Of a stretch of DNA of 64,000 bases, positions 30,105 to 57,831 are shown piece by piece. Both the position numbers and the translations under genes were made by a program. The first letter of the stretch is position 1. Every line of letters starts with the position of its first letter. This DNA comes from a virus: positions 17,796-81,795 of IMG/VR virus record IMGVR_UViG_3300035034_002228; one strand, 5' to 3'. A model generated the notes under the pieces. The model was not told the origin of the DNA and searched no databases. It saw only the letters and a list, made by a program, of their open reading frames with translations.

Positions 30105-30644
30105 TTACGGTGTCGGTTCAGTCAAGACCAGGCCGTCGAGGAGTTTGTTCTCAACGGCGACGTCGATGTCAACGTCCAGCGGTCGTACAACGAAGCTCAC
30201 GTTACCCCGGTAAGCGTAGGACCACGCACTGGCTTCCATGGTGAATGACTCACCATCGGCCCAATTGGTGGGCAGTACGTACGAGTCGGCGATGTCTTCA
30301 ATGACTAGGGCTGATCCGAAGTAGGCGTTAAACCCGTCCAGAATGTCTTGCAGGGTCAGTGTGCCGGTGTCGGGGTCCACATCCACCTGCACCACAAACG
30401 GGTTGCGGGCGATGGCGACAAACTCAGACAGGTCGATCCGGTTGTAGTAGATCGACGCGCTGCCTTTGTACCCGAAATCGGGAATACCGGAAATCACCAG
30501 TTCGGTGTTCCGTTCGTAAGTAGGGTTGGTGTTAATCGCCGGAACGTCGAACTCAACCTGTTCCCACGTCAGCGACAACCCAGCGCTTTGGTTCAACAAC
30601 GCAAGGACTTGGTCCTTGGATGTCATGGAAATATCGTAAGCCAT
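30105..30644 (-). CDS. Modular virion-family paralog, N-domain only
   Basis: A 179-residue protein. ATG 30644 follows TTGGAGTAAC; an upstream ATG at 30692 lacks a site. It has the N-domain (QVLALLNQSAGLSLTWEQV, GYKGSASIYYNRIDLSEFV, FNAYFGSALVIEDIAD, SYAYRGNVSFVV) with the GYKGS core closest to the 20176 gene. It ends with a short tail, KLLDGLVLTEP, close to the LDGLVLIEPE end of the 19494 product. It opens the minus-strand paralog operon. Confidence 0.72.
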   Translation of the reverse strand: MAYDISMTSKDQVLALLNQSAGLSLTWEQVEFDVPAINTNPTYERNTELVISGIPDFGYKGSASIYYNRIDLSEFVAIARNPFVVQVDVDPDTGTLTLQDILDGFNAYFGSALVIEDIADSYVLPTNWADGESFTMEASAWSYAYRGNVSFVVRPLDVDIDVAVENKLLDGLVLTEPTP

Positions 30645-30743
30645 TTTGGTTACTCCAATTGTCTTTGGTAACGCACCTTTGGGGTTGTCCAATCCCGAAA
30701 GTACATAGAATTACGAGCCCGCCACCGATTATCGACATAGACA

Positions 30744-30763: not shown

Positions 30764-31213
30764 TCAGTCCGGGACATAGAAATCCACGCGCAATGGGTGG
30801 TTATCGAAGGTGTGATGGATCAACTGGGCGACGGTGGGGCAGTCCAATCCACCCAAACCGGCACCGACGGGTGGGATGGCCAAGCTGGTGATCTCCAACA
30901 TTCGCCACACGTCCCCCGCCAACGCGGTCAGGTTGTCTTGTACCCACGTCAGTTGACTGGGGTCACGCCAATGGTCCTTGGTCGGGAAGAACAACACCTG
31001 CCGACCACTGCCTTCCCCTAACGGGGCCGTGAGCAATCGATCAACTGCTAACCAGTCACTGTTGTAGAACTGGCGGTACGCACGGTACGTGTCTGGGTAA
31101 CGTCGTTTAAACGCCAGAGCCAGACCCGCCCCCATGGCACCGTGGCAATTCGTCGGACACACCAACGTCTGGCGATCACTGTCCAACAAATTGCCCCAGT
31201 ATTCCACTATCAC
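30764..31213 (-). CDS. DarG-like macrodomain protein
   Basis: A 149-residue single macrodomain starting at GTG 31213, with GGGTGAT upstream. Conserved ADP-ribose-binding loops are present: NCHGAMGAGLALAF (residues 22-35) and IPPVGAGLGGLD (113-124). The PTKDHWR stretch (77-83) closely follows the DarG/TARG1-type pattern in which the lysine is catalytic (K79 here). DarG removes ADP-ribose that DarT adds to thymidine in DNA. No DarT-like gene is adjacent; instead it sits 12 bases after the portal gene, probably in the same transcript. A role in undoing host DarT or other ADP-ribosylation is inferred. Confidence 0.85.
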   Translation of the reverse strand: MIVEYWGNLLDSDRQTLVCPTNCHGAMGAGLALAFKRRYPDTYRAYRQFYNSDWLAVDRLLTAPLGEGSGRQVLFFPTKDHWRDPSQLTWVQDNLTALAGDVWRMLEITSLAIPPVGAGLGGLDCPTVAQLIHHTFDNHPLRVDFYVPD

Positions 31214-31225
31214 CGCATCACCCGA

Positions 31226-33979
31226 TCATTTCTTATCCTTGTCTTCATCCTCTTCGGGCTCCTCTTCCTCCTCGGGGTCGGTCTCTTCTTCGGCTTCGGG
31301 ATCTTCCTCTTCGTCAAGAGTCTCCTCTTCCGTGTCCTCCTCGGTGGTTTCAGACTCCTCTTCTGAGTCGGTGGTGTCTTCCTCTGTCCCCTCTTCGGTT
31401 TCAGTGGATTCTTCCTCTTCGTCTAACGCGAAGTCGTCTTCACCGCCGAACTCGTCCTCATCGCCGGAGGCTTCACCGGATTCATCGTCGGTGGTTTCTT
31501 CACCCTCGCCATCACCGGTTTCCTCACCGGACTCTTCTTCCTCTTCCGGTTGGTTCTTCTCTTCCCACACCTTGCGTTTCTCTTCGATGCCGTCCAAGTA
31601 TTTCTGAATGGCCTCACCCAAGCTGCTGAACTGACCTTCCTGAATGTCCAGCAAACTGAACACGGGGTTCTTGCCGTCCATCTCAGTGAGCTTGTCCAAT
31701 TCCGGCATGATGTTGTTCCGGTCCAGCCATGTGCGTTGGTAGTACGCCTTGATCACCGCAATGACGTGATCCACGGTGTTGGGCTCACGTGCCAATACTT
31801 CGGCCGGGAACAAGTCCGGGGTGATGTACGCCTCTAGCGCCCGTTCCAGCAGTGTGGTGTACTGCTCAAACATTTGCTGTTGTAGATCCACGCGGGTGGT
31901 GTCCGGCATGGGCAGATCGGTCTGGATCGAGTCGATGAACAGGTCGATCAACTCCTCGGTTTCCATCTTCTTCTGTTCTTTGGTGAGTTTGGTTTTCTGT
32001 TCGGTCAGGACCTCTTCCAACTTCGCCTTCAGTCGAGCGGAATGACGGGTAACCAACTGTGAGTGCTTAGTCAAGTACCGCGTGAGTTTCTTCTGGTGGC
32101 GAATCACTCGGCGGGTCATCAACAGGTTGTTGTTCACCACACTGGTAGCAAAGTCCGGGCTGGAGGTGGGGTCCACCAGTTCCGGGTTGATACCAAAGCC
32201 TGAGATGTGCATCCGACGCAGTCGATCCTGCAGTTCCGGATTCCCGCCCTGAATGTTGGTGTTGTAATCGTCAAACTCCACCTTGGTGGTGGGGTAGTTG
32301 TCCGACTCCACGTTGATCGAGAAATCAAACCCAGCGCGGTTGAGGTAATCCAGGGTTTGGCCCGGATCGGGAGACGCCAACGGGAACCCCCGATGGGAGC
32401 TTTCCAGTACTGCCGCCTGCACATCCGAAATGGTTTTCTCCGGATCAGGGTCTTCGGCGTCCACACTGATGCTGGCCCGCTTGCGACCCACGGCGTTACG
32501 AACACCGGCCATGGTTTCAGCAAACAGCAACACACTCCGCATCGAGGACAAGATCTTCGACTGTGTCAACAACGTTTGTCCAATGCCGTGTTTGTTGTAC
32601 GCGAAGGCCATGTAAGTGACCAGTTCGGCGGGGATGTACAGTAACTGGGTGTTCTGGTTCTTGAGGGACCGGTACAGCATGATCCGGTAGATGTCCTCTT
32701 CAGTGCCCAGCTCAAAGTCTTCCCCATACAGACCGTTACGCAAACGGTTGATCAGATCGTTCTCGATGATGCCCGCGTACGCCTGCTGGATCTGATCGAA
32801 CTCAGCGGACGAATCGGTATTGGTAGCGCCCATGGCTTCCTTGGTACGCTTGACCAACTCGGACGTGTTGTCTTTGGAGTTCGCACTGAAATTGCTGCGC
32901 AGTTCCCCGTAATAGTCCTTCCCTTCTTCGCGCACCACCGGGCGACCGTTCTGGTCGATCATCACAAAGTACCCCACGTGTTCTTCGGGGGAACCGGGTA
33001 CGTACACGGGAATCACACTTTCAATCGGCAGTTTCATCACCAGCGGGTGACCGGCCGACGGTTTGTTGATGTATTCCTGTGTGGGCAATACTTGGGTGTG
33101 AACCGCCGGTTGCTGACCGCGTTGGGTGTATAGCTTGTCAATGTCTTCAGGACTCAGGCCTTTGCTGGCGGATTCCATGGACACTTGGTGACGGTTCAAC
33201 AAGGAATTGATCTTCAGTTGTCGTCCTTTATTACGGATCGCTGTGTTCTTCAGCACATCGAAGTTATCGGTTACTTGCACGCCTGGAATGCTGACGTGAT
33301 TCCGATCGGTGCGTGCACCACCAACATTAAGCTGACCGGAGATCCCACTGGCGGCTTCCTGACCGCCCCGGAACGTTTCCATGGAGACACGCGGTTCACG
33401 CGGATGACCCAAGAACCCCATGGGGAGTCCTTTGTTGATCCGACTCACTACTTTGTTGTAACTTTCCATGGACAGCTGCTGAGACCCGTTGATAATCACG
33501 TCCAGGTTGTTCTCAGGCAGCACCGCCAGGATGTGCGCGCCCTTGGTAAACAGGATCTCTTCGAGGATACCGTCCAGCCGGTCATCAATTTTATAGTCGT
33601 TTTTGAAGTATTCCTGCACCACGGACAGGAGCGGGCGAGCCACTTCACTGTCGAATACCCGTTCATCCGCCGTAAAATTCAAGTCCACTGAGGACATGTC
33701 CTTCGGAGACAGAATCGACCCGATGAGGATCTGTTCGGTCAGTTCGACGTCCGGCAGCAGTTGGAATACCGAATCCGCATCAATGGCGTCCTGACCCGTG
33801 GCCTGGGAAATCTGTTCAAACAGATCACGTGAGACCGTGATGTTACGTGGATCACTGGGTCGGTCACTGGTTTGGGTTTGGTCTCGAACCAGTTTTGTCA
33901 ACAACGCGTCCACGTTGTCTTTTGCGTTGCGGGTGTACGCCAACTTGGGGTACTTTCGACTCCCATCTTGAACAGCCAT
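31226..33979 (-). CDS. Portal protein with long acidic tail
   Basis: A 917-residue protein. The region around residues 430-560 is T4 gp20-like: IPAELVTYMAFAYNKHGIG, then a helix with SKILSSMRSVLLFAETMAGVRNA, as in portal cores. The large size resembles the phiKZ-group portal. Three SME motifs (residues 170-172, 199-201, 267-269) match the [SAG]-x-E rule for jumbo-phage prohead protease, so the N-terminus may be trimmed. The last 110 residues are almost all D, E, S, T and G, an extreme acidic tail. AAGGAGGGCGG precedes ATG 33979. It shares a 55-base divergent region with the 34035 gene. Confidence 0.8.
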   Translation of the reverse strand: MAVQDGSRKYPKLAYTRNAKDNVDALLTKLVRDQTQTSDRPSDPRNITVSRDLFEQISQATGQDAIDADSVFQLLPDVELTEQILIGSILSPKDMSSVDLNFTADERVFDSEVARPLLSVVQEYFKNDYKIDDRLDGILEEILFTKGAHILAVLPENNLDVIINGSQQLSMESYNKVVSRINKGLPMGFLGHPREPRVSMETFRGGQEAASGISGQLNVGGARTDRNHVSIPGVQVTDNFDVLKNTAIRNKGRQLKINSLLNRHQVSMESASKGLSPEDIDKLYTQRGQQPAVHTQVLPTQEYINKPSAGHPLVMKLPIESVIPVYVPGSPEEHVGYFVMIDQNGRPVVREEGKDYYGELRSNFSANSKDNTSELVKRTKEAMGATNTDSSAEFDQIQQAYAGIIENDLINRLRNGLYGEDFELGTEEDIYRIMLYRSLKNQNTQLLYIPAELVTYMAFAYNKHGIGQTLLTQSKILSSMRSVLLFAETMAGVRNAVGRKRASISVDAEDPDPEKTISDVQAAVLESSHRGFPLASPDPGQTLDYLNRAGFDFSINVESDNYPTTKVEFDDYNTNIQGGNPELQDRLRRMHISGFGINPELVDPTSSPDFATSVVNNNLLMTRRVIRHQKKLTRYLTKHSQLVTRHSARLKAKLEEVLTEQKTKLTKEQKKMETEELIDLFIDSIQTDLPMPDTTRVDLQQQMFEQYTTLLERALEAYITPDLFPAEVLAREPNTVDHVIAVIKAYYQRTWLDRNNIMPELDKLTEMDGKNPVFSLLDIQEGQFSSLGEAIQKYLDGIEEKRKVWEEKNQPEEEEESGEETGDGEGEETTDDESGEASGDEDEFGGEDDFALDEEEESTETEEGTEEDTTDSEEESETTEEDTEEETLDEEEDPEAEEETDPEEEEEPEEDEDKDKK

Positions 33980-43978: not shown

Positions 43979-44626
43979 TTAAACGAGGGTTAACGGACCG
44001 TCGTAGTCTTCGGCCGGTACCCAGTACTCCCCATCGTGTACCCAATGTTCGTCCTTGTGTTTGAACTCACTACCTTTGACGGGGTTTTCGGGAATCACGT
44101 CCTGAGGTGGGTTATGTTGGTACTCGGGTTGAGACGGCGGCATGTAGGGGAACTGAATGTCCCGGATACTATCCCTGGAAGTAAACCGTGTCCCATTTGG
44201 ATCAATGAACACCACCGCATCCAACGTGTACGCGGTACCATCCGCGCGTTGGAAGATCTTACTGCAACGCAGGTTCTGTCGGACGTCCCCTTCGTACCAT
44301 TCCGACCATTCTTTTTCGTTCCCAGTCAGTGGGGTGAGGGGTTCACCTTCCACGAGACGAATGAACGCCGAAGCCGCCAACGCGGAGGAGAACCCGCTGT
44401 GGTTCTCTTTGGCGTGAGTCTGGACCAGTCGATACGCCGCCGGACCCAACATTCCATCGTAGTCACTGTCGGAATCAAACAAGCCAGCAGCTGTCAACTC
44501 ACGCATGGCGTGCGAGGTCATCTCGGAGCCGTTATCACGGCGGGTAAGTATACGGCGACACCAATCCCCGAAACGCTCTTTCCAGGTAGGGGTATGGGCT
44601 TCAACGGTGCAATCTTGTTCAGTCAT
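43979..44626 (-). CDS. Conserved-type phage hypothetical protein
   Basis: A 215-residue soluble protein with a compact centre (SGFSSALAASAFIRLVEG, LTPLTGNEKEWSEW, LRCSKIFQRADGTAYTLDAV, FTSRDSIRDIQFPY). This string of motifs is one I associate with a widespread phage protein of unknown function, but I cannot verify it. The C-terminal 50 residues are acidic and rich in H, P, W and Y (EHWVHDGEYWVPAEDYD). ATG 44626 has AAAAGGATAG upstream. It lies between a terminator downstream of the capsid gene and small genes; no promoter box is clear. Confidence 0.65.
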   Translation of the reverse strand: MTEQDCTVEAHTPTWKERFGDWCRRILTRRDNGSEMTSHAMRELTAAGLFDSDSDYDGMLGPAAYRLVQTHAKENHSGFSSALAASAFIRLVEGEPLTPLTGNEKEWSEWYEGDVRQNLRCSKIFQRADGTAYTLDAVVFIDPNGTRFTSRDSIRDIQFPYMPPSQPEYQHNPPQDVIPENPVKGSEFKHKDEHWVHDGEYWVPAEDYDGPLTLV

Positions 44627-54495: not shown

Positions 54496-55848
54496 CTATA
54501 CGGTGTCGTGCCCGCGTTCGATGAATATTTTCAGTGTGATGATGGAGGGGAACCGGTTGTTCACCACCCCCACTTCTTGTGGCATTCGTTGTTCATGTAC
54601 CCCAAGCAGCACACCGTGGTAAGTCCTCAACTCATTGTCGGCGTTAGTTAAAAATTTCACCGGCATTCCAGGGTATAATAGGGCCGAATCGCCGTGCTGC
54701 CACTGAACCGTCAAGTACCGACCCCGACGTTGGGCCATCTTGGCGTAGTGCTGGAAGGGATTGGCGGTGGCGCGTTGCTCGGCCCAGCGGGTGTTGGAGA
54801 ACCCCGATGGCATTTTAACCCCTTCCACTTCGTACATGTTGGTTTCCCGTTTGGCCACGGCTTTGTTCCCACCGTGTTCCACGGGGTTGAGCAGCTGGTT
54901 GGCGTCCATGAACCGGACCGCACTGCCCTCGTTCAATTGCCCAAACTGACCCCGGTCAAACGCCGTCGCGTTACCGGTGGCTACCACGACCACCTGGTTG
55001 TTGGTTTTCCGGTACGTGCGTTCCGCCCCGTGATAACGGTTCGGGGGTATGTTGAGGATGGTCAACACCCTAGGGGTTTCCTTGTACCGGGTCACGTGGT
55101 ACATCGGGAACAGATACCAGATCCGATCTTGCAGGTAGCACCCTAAGCCAGACGGGTACACCCCACCCTCTTCGTTTTGAAACACCTTGGGTGCTTTGAG
55201 TAGGGGCAAACCGTGCGGTAGGATCAGATGCTCCCGAACGTCGGTATTGAACCCCGGAGCCAAGTCCACCCCATCGATCAGTTGTTTGTTGGAACCCGTC
55301 ACCAGTTGAGTGGTTTCGGTCAACAGCGAGCGTAACGCGTGGGCGGGCGTTTGTTGACGATACATGCGTCCCACGGTGATCATCCGAGTTTGATAGAACC
55401 CCTCGTCCATCAATTGGAACAACACGGTTTTGGGCTGCGTCCGGTTCATGTCGTCCCGCGACCCCGCTTGAGGACTGCGGGTGGCAGATGCGGTTTCGTC
55501 CTGGTCCACAAGGATGGCGCGGTAACGTCGGGTATTGCTGCCCACATCGCCGCGTTGGCTGTCGGTGTTCTCATACATTGGAATGGCCGTCACATCGACC
55601 CAAACCTCGTCCCGGTTGGGGATGATGAGGTACGAGTAATCCCCCTTACCCATCATCACTTCCAGACTTACCCCGTCCCCGTTGTTGTTCTCGTAATCCC
55701 GCTCGATGGAGAAGTTGATGAGTCGCATCGGACTGATCCACTGGTTCCCAACCCGGAACCGGCATGTCAGTTTGTAGTTGACCAACCCATCGCCCCGAGA
55801 AGCGATGGCTTCAACTTCACGCATGAGCAGTGTGGAATCTACAGCCAT
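54496..55848 (-). CDS. Virion structural-type protein
   Basis: A 450-residue soluble protein, beta rich in its first 180 residues (YKLTCRFRVGNQWISPMRL, YSYLIIPNRDEVWVDVTAI) and with an interior KTNNQVVVVATGNATAF. The first 100 residues look like a domain of phage tail-hub or baseplate type (conserved FSIERDYENN), but I cannot assign it. GGAGAATAACCC precedes ATG 55848 and the gene overlaps its upstream neighbour by ten bases. Four such genes in a row (54496, 55839, 56431, 57837) suggest a baseplate or tail-tip operon. Confidence 0.6.
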   Translation of the reverse strand: MAVDSTLLMREVEAIASRGDGLVNYKLTCRFRVGNQWISPMRLINFSIERDYENNNGDGVSLEVMMGKGDYSYLIIPNRDEVWVDVTAIPMYENTDSQRGDVGSNTRRYRAILVDQDETASATRSPQAGSRDDMNRTQPKTVLFQLMDEGFYQTRMITVGRMYRQQTPAHALRSLLTETTQLVTGSNKQLIDGVDLAPGFNTDVREHLILPHGLPLLKAPKVFQNEEGGVYPSGLGCYLQDRIWYLFPMYHVTRYKETPRVLTILNIPPNRYHGAERTYRKTNNQVVVVATGNATAFDRGQFGQLNEGSAVRFMDANQLLNPVEHGGNKAVAKRETNMYEVEGVKMPSGFSNTRWAEQRATANPFQHYAKMAQRRGRYLTVQWQHGDSALLYPGMPVKFLTNADNELRTYHGVLLGVHEQRMPQEVGVVNNRFPSIITLKIFIERGHDTV

Positions 55849-56426
55849 GGGTTATTCTCCACTAACGCTTTCTCGATCCGGTCCACGATGGACACGTACG
55901 GTTTCAGTTCGCCTTGATCCGTGGTGATCTTATCCCGTAAGTACCGCTCGGTGCGGACGGGGTTCCGACGACGGTTCATCTGCATCAATTGATCACGCAA
56001 CGGGTCCGCCGACCGTTCGTCCGGTTCGTAGAACTTGGAGGTGGAGTACAACGCGATGGCGATGGCTTCGAGTTGTCGGAACTCCTCGATGCTGGGGGCG
56101 TCTTCGGGATGAATGCCTTGGAACGCCACCCGCTCCCAATCGTGCAGGTGTTCTTGAATGTCGTCGTAGACCTCCACTGCGTCGCGTTCGTCCACAAAGT
56201 CGATAGGGGCACCGTCGTCGTGCAGAAGCGCCAAGCCAGCCGCAGTTTGACGCATGACGGAGGGTTCCATCAACCGCTGACGGTCGAGCGCGGAGTCGCC
56301 GCTCACGTGGTATCCGTTCTTCTCCAAGTAATCCAAGCCGTACAAGAAGATTTGAGGAATGCGCATTTCGTATTTAAAATGAAACAGTCGATACGCCGCC
56401 GTGTGCGGCTTTTTCTCCGTGCTCAT
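55839..56426 (-). CDS. Virion operon protein, acidic helical
   Basis: A 195-residue, mostly helical acidic protein (AVEVYDDIQEHLHDWERV, IEEFRQLEAIAIALYSTS). It overlaps the 54496 gene by ten bases and lies four bases after the 56431 gene, so the three are coupled. ATG 56426 has GAGCAAAGTAACGTC upstream, a weak site, consistent with coupled translation. No recognised domain; a chaperone or small tail component is possible. Confidence 0.6.
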   Translation of the reverse strand: MSTEKKPHTAAYRLFHFKYEMRIPQIFLYGLDYLEKNGYHVSGDSALDRQRLMEPSVMRQTAAGLALLHDDGAPIDFVDERDAVEVYDDIQEHLHDWERVAFQGIHPEDAPSIEEFRQLEAIAIALYSTSKFYEPDERSADPLRDQLMQMNRRRNPVRTERYLRDKITTDQGELKPYVSIVDRIEKALVENNPWL

Positions 56427-56430
56427 GACG

Positions 56431-57831
56431 TTACTTTGCTCCTGCTCGTTTCAACAAACACCAGACGGCCGGGTAATAATAGAACCGTTCCAGGTTGTCC
56501 CAATCGTAAATGTGGTTCACCAGCCCATCCAACGCATCCAAGTTCAGCGCTTCACGGCGTAACGCTTGACCGATCAGCAATTCCAACTTGGACTGTGTTT
56601 CGCGGTCGTCTGTATAGAACGCTTCGCTGAAGGCGTAGTAATCGTCCACCGCCACCGGGTGAATGTCCGGGGGCAGGCGCCACGGGTCCACGCCTTCCAT
56701 CATGGGCGTCGGTTGGAAGAACCGAAGACCGCGCTCGGCTTGGGTCTTATTGGGCCCAGCCAACGGACGTCGAGGACGCCCTTCCCGGAAAGGAAGGCCG
56801 GCACGATCGGCGTAGTTGTTGTCGTACTGGGTATCGACGTCGGTGGGGGCGTCGATGGGGAAGACCAGTCGATCTATGCCGGTGTACCCCAACGCCTGTA
56901 ACGTAGGACGGCCTTTGAAGTAACTGGTGGTCACCAAATTGGCTTTCTGCGTTGCCCCGTACAGGCGGGTGTCGTCCATGCGCACGATCGCGTCCCACAC
57001 CGTGGGTTGGTTCATCACCGGTTCGGCCGAGACGTTCATCTCCCGGACACGGCGCAGGCGTGGGTCCAGTGACGTGTCCACGGTTTGCAATACCGCTTTG
57101 GTGACAAAATGGTCGTAGGTCTTGCGCAGTTGATCTGGTACCAGTAGTGTGCTGTGTTCGGTGCTGAAGAAATCCGTCAGGTACCGCTTGATCAATTCCA
57201 AGTACAGTTCTTGGTACCGTTCGCCTCGGGCTTTCTCTTCCCCAGTGACAAAGGGACCGCAACCACTGACCAAGGATGCTTGGGAGTAATGGAACGTTTC
57301 AATGGTCTTGCGTTCCAGATCCGCCAACCGCTGGTTGTCCAGTTCTGCCACTAGGGCGTACTCGATATTGTACACCGAGTCTTTCAGAATGGTGGCGCGG
57401 GTGGATTCGGTCACCGTGAATGCCCCCACACGCCCGTCGCCGATGTCCGCAACAAACATGTCGCCTTTGTTGGGCACCAAGAACGGGTACGTGATCCCGC
57501 TCCCACGAACGTCCATGGTTTTCAGACTGGGGTCTTGACTGAAACTCAGTGGCGTGGTGACCTTCAAGTGCATCGCTTTCAAGCGACGATACTGTTGGTA
57601 CACCGGGTCCCGGTTCAGGTCTTGTACCGTCGGCTCATTACTGGCTCCCAATACCTGAGAGAAGTAATCCACCGTCCAGTTCGACCCTTCCACCCACGTC
57701 AACAACGCGGAACTTGGCGTGTACTGGGTATCAACCGTGATGCCGTCGAACTTCTCGTGTTGGATCTTCGGCTTCACCGTTGGGGGTGGTTCGGGCAATG
57801 ACCCTTCATTGTCATCTTCAAACAACGCCAT
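56431..57831 (-). CDS. Virion structural-type protein
   Basis: A 466-residue soluble protein. The N-terminal 30 residues are acidic and proline rich. A beta region (GITYPFLVPNKGDMFVADI, GRVGAFTVTEST) suggests a small barrel, followed by helices (TIETFHYSQASLVSG, YQELYLELIKRYLTDFF). GAGGTAAATGTC precedes ATG 57831, five bases after the 57837 gene. The combination of a barrel-like centre and helical C-terminus resembles phage baseplate wedge proteins in general, but no family can be named. Confidence 0.6.
   Translation of the reverse strand: MALFEDDNEGSLPEPPPTVKPKIQHEKFDGITVDTQYTPSSALLTWVEGSNWTVDYFSQVLGASNEPTVQDLNRDPVYQQYRRLKAMHLKVTTPLSFSQDPSLKTMDVRGSGITYPFLVPNKGDMFVADIGDGRVGAFTVTESTRATILKDSVYNIEYALVAELDNQRLADLERKTIETFHYSQASLVSGCGPFVTGEEKARGERYQELYLELIKRYLTDFFSTEHSTLLVPDQLRKTYDHFVTKAVLQTVDTSLDPRLRRVREMNVSAEPVMNQPTVWDAIVRMDDTRLYGATQKANLVTTSYFKGRPTLQALGYTGIDRLVFPIDAPTDVDTQYDNNYADRAGLPFREGRPRRPLAGPNKTQAERGLRFFQPTPMMEGVDPWRLPPDIHPVAVDDYYAFSEAFYTDDRETQSKLELLIGQALRREALNLDALDGLVNHIYDWDNLERFYYYPAVWCLLKRAGAK

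Follow-up and report, generated by a model that had tools for sequence, protein, structure and literature searches.

The window, a 64,000-nucleotide stretch taken from an 81.8-kb virus record (bases 17796-81795), contains homologs of the phiKZ-type major head protein, polymerase, DnaB-like helicase and gp119, and a macrodomain gene placed behind the portal protein gene (table 1). The reading frame, on the minus strand and with a GTG start, lies at the coordinates given in the initial annotation, and the portal gene stands next to it as described there; the name "portal" for this phiKZ gp129-type gene rests on the annotations of homologs in other phages. The macrodomain gene starts 12 nt past the stop codon of the portal gene, which has a good Shine-Dalgarno sequence ahead of its own ATG. 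Because a hairpin and a conserved non-coding block separate it from the downstream genes, the macrodomain gene seems to close a unit made up of portal and macrodomain. The hairpin is the probable terminator of this unit; a relative sharing the non-coding block has a comparable hairpin with TTTT after it. The block itself is a possible promoter of the head-gene cluster downstream.

Table 1. Positions of the features discussed, numbered within the window.
Feature	Position	Strand	Remarks
Orphan DarG-type macrodomain gene	30764..31213	-	149 aa; GTG start at 31213, in-frame GTG also at 31207
Portal protein gene (phiKZ gp129 homolog, PHROG_3004)	31226..33979	-	917 aa, 45% identity to phiKZ gp129
GC-rich hairpin, starts at the macrodomain stop codon	30740..30765	-	z -2.6 against shuffles
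Non-coding block conserved between the window and L005, TATGTCGATAA...CGTAATTCTATGTACTTTCGGGA	30697..30739	-	
Next gene, virion structural protein of the DUF7941/PHROG_1037 cluster	30105..30692	-	
Homologs of phiKZ gp99-gp100-gp101, no macrodomain behind	54496..57831	-	

The same arrangement of portal and macrodomain is found in G001, a 231.8-kb contig, where the macrodomain is 70% and the portal about 80% identical to those of the window, and where the macrodomain copy, which starts with ATG, occupies the equivalent position. The dN/dS of the macrodomain between the window and G001 is about 0.21, which indicates purifying selection, although the constraint is weaker than that on the neighbours (about 0.07-0.12). 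This ATG-started copy in a second phage and the purifying selection argue that the reading frame is a real gene. PicA, a core protein of nucleus-forming phages, is present in G001 (E 9e-160), and therefore the window phage very probably belongs to the nucleus-forming family; within its own 81.8-kb fragment no match to PicA was found.

The fold, the DarG-type family and the active site of the window macrodomain are well supported. The reading frame scores 34.7 bits against Pfam Macro (cut-off 22) and matches PHROG_335 at 1.2e-30. When the PDB was searched by sequence, the DarG macrodomains of M. tuberculosis and T. aquaticus came out best (5m3i, 6.6e-27; 5m31, 1.9e-24), with T. africanus DarTG (3e-12) and TARG1 (about 9e-4) at lower ranks. 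The DarG models of NCBIfam (128 bits) and PADLOC (135 bits) match residues 1-148 of the protein, and they are themselves matched only over their first 145-148 positions; the NCBIfam antitoxin_DarG model is covered at positions 5-148 of 338, and its 128 bits stay below the cut-off of 250. As only the N-terminal part of these models is matched, the half that binds DarT is missing, and the 149-aa protein indeed lacks the C-terminal DarT-binding domain of full-length DarG (about 340-360 aa). The AlphaFold model (pLDDT 95.7, pTM 0.90) gave its four best structural matches with DarG entries (Z 25.1, 24.8, 23.8 and 22.6), about 3-5 Z above TARG1 (19.7), and E. coli YmdB reached 16.9. The model drew on an alignment rich in bacterial DarGs, and therefore the sequence searches are the independent evidence for the DarG placement. 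By sequence, curated HMMs and structure, the DarG-like macrodomain of the initial annotation is thus of the DarG type rather than a generic one, and the structural comparison proposed there put DarG and then TARG1 at the top, not macrodomains that do not act on DNA.

The three motifs of the initial annotation are NCHGAMGAGLALAF (residues 22-35), PTKDHWR (residues 77-83) and IPPVGAGLGGLD (residues 113-124). N22, K79, W82, G117 and G121 lie in the ADP-ribose pocket, and the positions K79, N22, G25, G28, G30, G117 and G121 show no variation among 25 phage homologs and 67 DarGs linked to DarT. K79, located in PTKDHWR, is the catalytic lysine that had been predicted; it is equivalent to K80 in T. 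aquaticus DarG and K84 in TARG1, and N22 is equivalent to N22. In T. aquaticus DarG the K80A change abolishes activity and N22A is the next most damaging; the macrodomain alone rescues cells from DarT, whereas its K80A form neither rescues nor inhibits DarT (PMC5179494). The TARG1 pattern, also claimed at first, holds for the lysine but not for D125 of TARG1, which is Gly121 in the window protein and Gly in all aligned DarGs too, and the alignment shows no TARG1-type Lys/Asp catalytic dyad in the window macrodomain. Ala occupies the position of K29, a residue whose change to Glu (K29E) impairs DarG of T. aquaticus. The net charge of the window macrodomain is about -4.7; that of the T. aquaticus DarG macrodomain is +6.5, and the 70% identical relative is near neutral.

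It is very improbable that catalysis has been lost and that the protein now serves as an ADP-ribose binder or as a virion or structural factor, as its place in the portal unit, between portal and head genes, and its weaker constraint than that of the neighbours could suggest. The lysine and the pocket residues are fully conserved, and the homologs of other phages do not lie beside the portal. What loss looks like is illustrated by Burkholderia phage FLC9 (L012 3977-4898), where two macrodomain genes stand in tandem and the second is probably inactive, since Arg replaces the lysine (PTRQHR) and the glycine motif is altered.

Macrodomain homologs were detected by tblastn in 262 phage records. 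In a first portal-bearing set all 15 records have one, most of these having been chosen for the macrodomain, and Noxifer, G004 and G005 by portal alone; in a second set, picked by portal, a match was found in 5 of 12. The macrodomain was not found in EL, N1M2, LAh10, VP4B and vB_PQ1, and PicA was not found there either; SURPRISE13 and Yong XC31 possess PicA, and no macrodomain was found in them. Among the eight portal-picked records with PicA, six have the macrodomain (Noxifer, G005, LucasX, Eowyn, FBKp24 and Goslar). The gene is frequent, not universal, in phiKZ-like phages. The phage does retain it, as the initial annotation had it, but this is not peculiar to the window phage: given how common the gene is across phiKZ-like phages, retention is a lineage trait.

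The homolog in phiKZ is gp104, which matches the DarG model with 137.8 bits, and the same DarG-type domain is present in gp108 of PhiPA3 and gp167 of 201phi2-1. The window protein is 25-29% identical to those of phiKZ and 201phi2-1, and it differs from this group in lying behind the portal gene, not behind gp101. PicA imports the 162-aa phiKZ gp104, published as a macrodomain of unknown function, into the nucleus of the phage, and such import is documented for gp104/gp108 only (PMC11087766). Knockdown of phiKZ104 by ASO weakly lowers ChmA and leaves plaque and cell counts without substantial change (PMC12571901). The window macrodomain is of the gp104-group type, a DarG-type homolog whose 70% relative G001 bears PicA, and its protein would also enter the nucleus.

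In phiKZ, Noxifer, G003, G004 and G005 the macrodomain lies within a few kb behind gp99-gp100-gp101. The window phage and G001 possess this cluster with no macrodomain there, and their copy is located behind the portal instead. G004 and G005, which are the next closest by portal (62-67%), have other genes behind their portal, and their contigs carry one macrodomain each, away from the portal. The portal-adjacent position looks derived. The macrodomain identity is 38-43% between the window and G004/G005 and 42% between G004 and G005, with portal identities of 62-73%, whereas phiKZ and 201phi2-1, with the macrodomain at the same place, share 53% of the portal and 66% of the macrodomain. These values are hard to fit to one rate, which suggests that the macrodomain was replaced. 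AU tests did not reject a clade with G004/G005 (p 0.14), one with phiKZ/Noxifer (0.31) or one uniting the copies of the phiKZ-like phages (0.19); separate acquisition was thus not demonstrated by the tree, and since vertical descent was not rejected, replacement stays a suggestion.

The DarT of Thermus phage phiMa was the seed of the profile used to look for DarT. This phage (L016 2300-4056) carries a complete DarT and full-length DarG pair, which served as positive control. No DarT was seen in the 81.8-kb record or in any of three relatives (231.8, 131.4 and 267.3 kb), and it was missing in 19 of 20 macrodomain phages. The description of the gene as an orphan with no DarT nearby therefore extends to the whole record and three relatives, and the protein is an orphan also in lacking the DarT-binding domain. 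The candidate explanation that it is part of a phage-borne DarTG pair was ruled out by the absence of DarT. A DarT adjoins 67 of the best 80 among at least 583 bacterial relatives, and in 64 of the 67 the macrodomain is part of a full-length DarG; as these 80 are the top of the bacterial relatives, the DarT-linked fraction applies to the nearest ones only. No KptA, the RNA-repair partner, turned up in the window record, in G001-G006, in phiKZ or in most other phages, and RNA repair with a KptA partner was ruled out for the lineage. No complementary pattern was seen for NADAR replacing the macrodomain in phages without one.

Another candidate role is a toggle or housekeeping one, in which the protein would counter an ART of the phage or of the host, for example by resetting modifications in the normal cycle, and would not respond to defence. 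Such a role would fit the frequency of the gene in phiKZ-like phages and the weak effect of the knockdown on ChmA without a known DarTG challenge. We consider it improbable, as no DarT was present in the phages tested (the ART search being one for the DarT family), and a stable housekeeping gene would not be expected to change its site or to differ so sharply between closely related phages.

On balance we lean towards the interpretation that the window gene encodes a stand-alone ADP-ribosyl hydrolase of the DarG type (DarTG2-type). This enzyme would strip phage DNA of ADP-ribose and in that way oppose DarTG2-like defence. It would be expressed in infected cells, probably as part of the portal transcription unit, and would bind ADP-ribosylated thymidine in its pocket. 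K79, together with N22, would then release the ADP-ribose, and phage DNA marked by host DarT would thereby be restored. Because the DarG half that binds DarT is missing, the protein would work solely by erasing the mark. We infer the hydrolase activity, the DNA substrate and the benefit against DarTG; this is the best explanation because the nearest structures are DarG, the active site is conserved, the DarG macrodomain alone suffices against DarT, the bacterial kin are DarT-linked, macrodomain phages are mostly without DarT, gp104 is nuclear and KptA is missing.

The main alternative, though rather unlikely, is an active ADP-ribosyl hydrolase whose principal substrate is not DNA but ADP-ribosylated protein, ADP-ribosylated RNA, as in mRNA modification of the CmdT type, or a soluble ADP-ribose derivative (such as a Thoeris signal or Appr-1''-P). 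Macrodomains act on many such substrates, the acidic protein fits such a role, and surveys of viral NAD/ADPr systems favour soluble derivatives for phages (PMC9503650; PMC7824862). The window moreover contains at 43979-44626 (minus strand) a likely second counter-defence gene, with 101 bits to Pfam Tad3 (type I Thoeris inhibitor) and a match to the Tad3 structure 9b7d at 2.8e-6; this Tad3-like gene implies that ADP-ribose signals matter to the phage. On the other hand, the DarG family is reported to be without the protein de-modifying activity of SCO6735 and TARG1 (PMC9411070), the absence of KptA from the window record and its relatives argues against RNA, and phiKZ gp104 goes to the site of the DNA.

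Several observations were counted against an anti-DarT role. First, the protein is acidic and has Ala at the K29 position; second, it is located within a structural-gene unit, and its place after the portal points to expression late in infection, by which time DarT would have done its damage. Furthermore, the effect of the phiKZ104 knockdown is weak, without a known DarTG challenge, and the macrodomain is missing in the PicA-bearing SURPRISE13 and Yong XC31. Moreover, the phage nucleus is believed to keep out those host enzymes that target DNA, in which case a DNA de-ADP-ribosylase would be needed less. More tentatively, it is possible that nucleus-forming phages keep a nucleus-resident DNA de-ADP-ribosylase of the DarG type, which they acquired or replaced on more than one occasion, and that phiKZ gp104 is an anti-DarT factor. 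If this is true, ADP-ribosylating toxins reach phage DNA despite the nuclear shell.

Phage answers to DarTG are known in other forms. AdfA of T4-like phages is an anti-DarT factor, and the orphan NADAR "AdfN" is an antitoxin-like hydrolase of a different fold that acts on guanosine-ADPr (DarTG1). The window protein would resemble AdfN as an orphan antitoxin-like hydrolase, and differs from it in having the macrodomain fold and in the mark concerned, that of AdfN being of DarTG1. AdfB of ICP1, a 77-aa DarT binder, is a phage-borne answer to DarTG, as the window gene would be, but it is unlike DarG (PMC11481870). The DarG macrodomain of DarTG2 (PDB 5m3i, 5m31/5m3e, 7omu) shares with the window protein the fold (Z 23-25), the lysine, N22, the lack of a TARG1-type Asp and 36-38% identity (M. 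tuberculosis and T. aquaticus domains), whereas the window protein has neither the C-terminal domain nor an adjoining DarT, is acidic and carries Ala at K29. TARG1 (C6orf130) shares the macrodomain class and the lysine at about 20% identity, and differs at Gly121; it is also reported to protect against thymidine-ADPr (PMC8501950).

Macrodomains are reported in 56% of jumbo phages (PMC9503650). Their occurrence there, the nuclear import of gp104 and the existence of phage answers to DarTG are already known. A literature search, made mostly outside subscription papers and preprints, found no paper in which the macrodomains of phiKZ-like phages are placed with DarG or assayed against DarT. The DarG placement and the link to nuclear gp104 give a gene of unknown function a testable anti-DarT hypothesis, which bears on whether the phage nucleus truly keeps DNA-modifying toxins out and which, if true, extends the orphan-antitoxin idea from the NADAR/DarTG1 to the macrodomain/DarTG2 branch.

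Some minor observations concern related genes. In Proteus phage 10 (L013 3977-4807) the C-terminal part fused to a DarG-type macrodomain resembles the YAcAr SLOG family, with a score just under that family's cut-off. Homologs of Streptomyces phages (L015 2980-3435) are annotated as ADP-ribosyltransferase and PHROG_335 as phosphatase, names that are probably wrong for a DarG-type macrodomain. Elsewhere in the window, at 117-1872 on the plus strand, two overlapping reading frames of this phiKZ-like phage each match the radical SAM family PHROG_1802.
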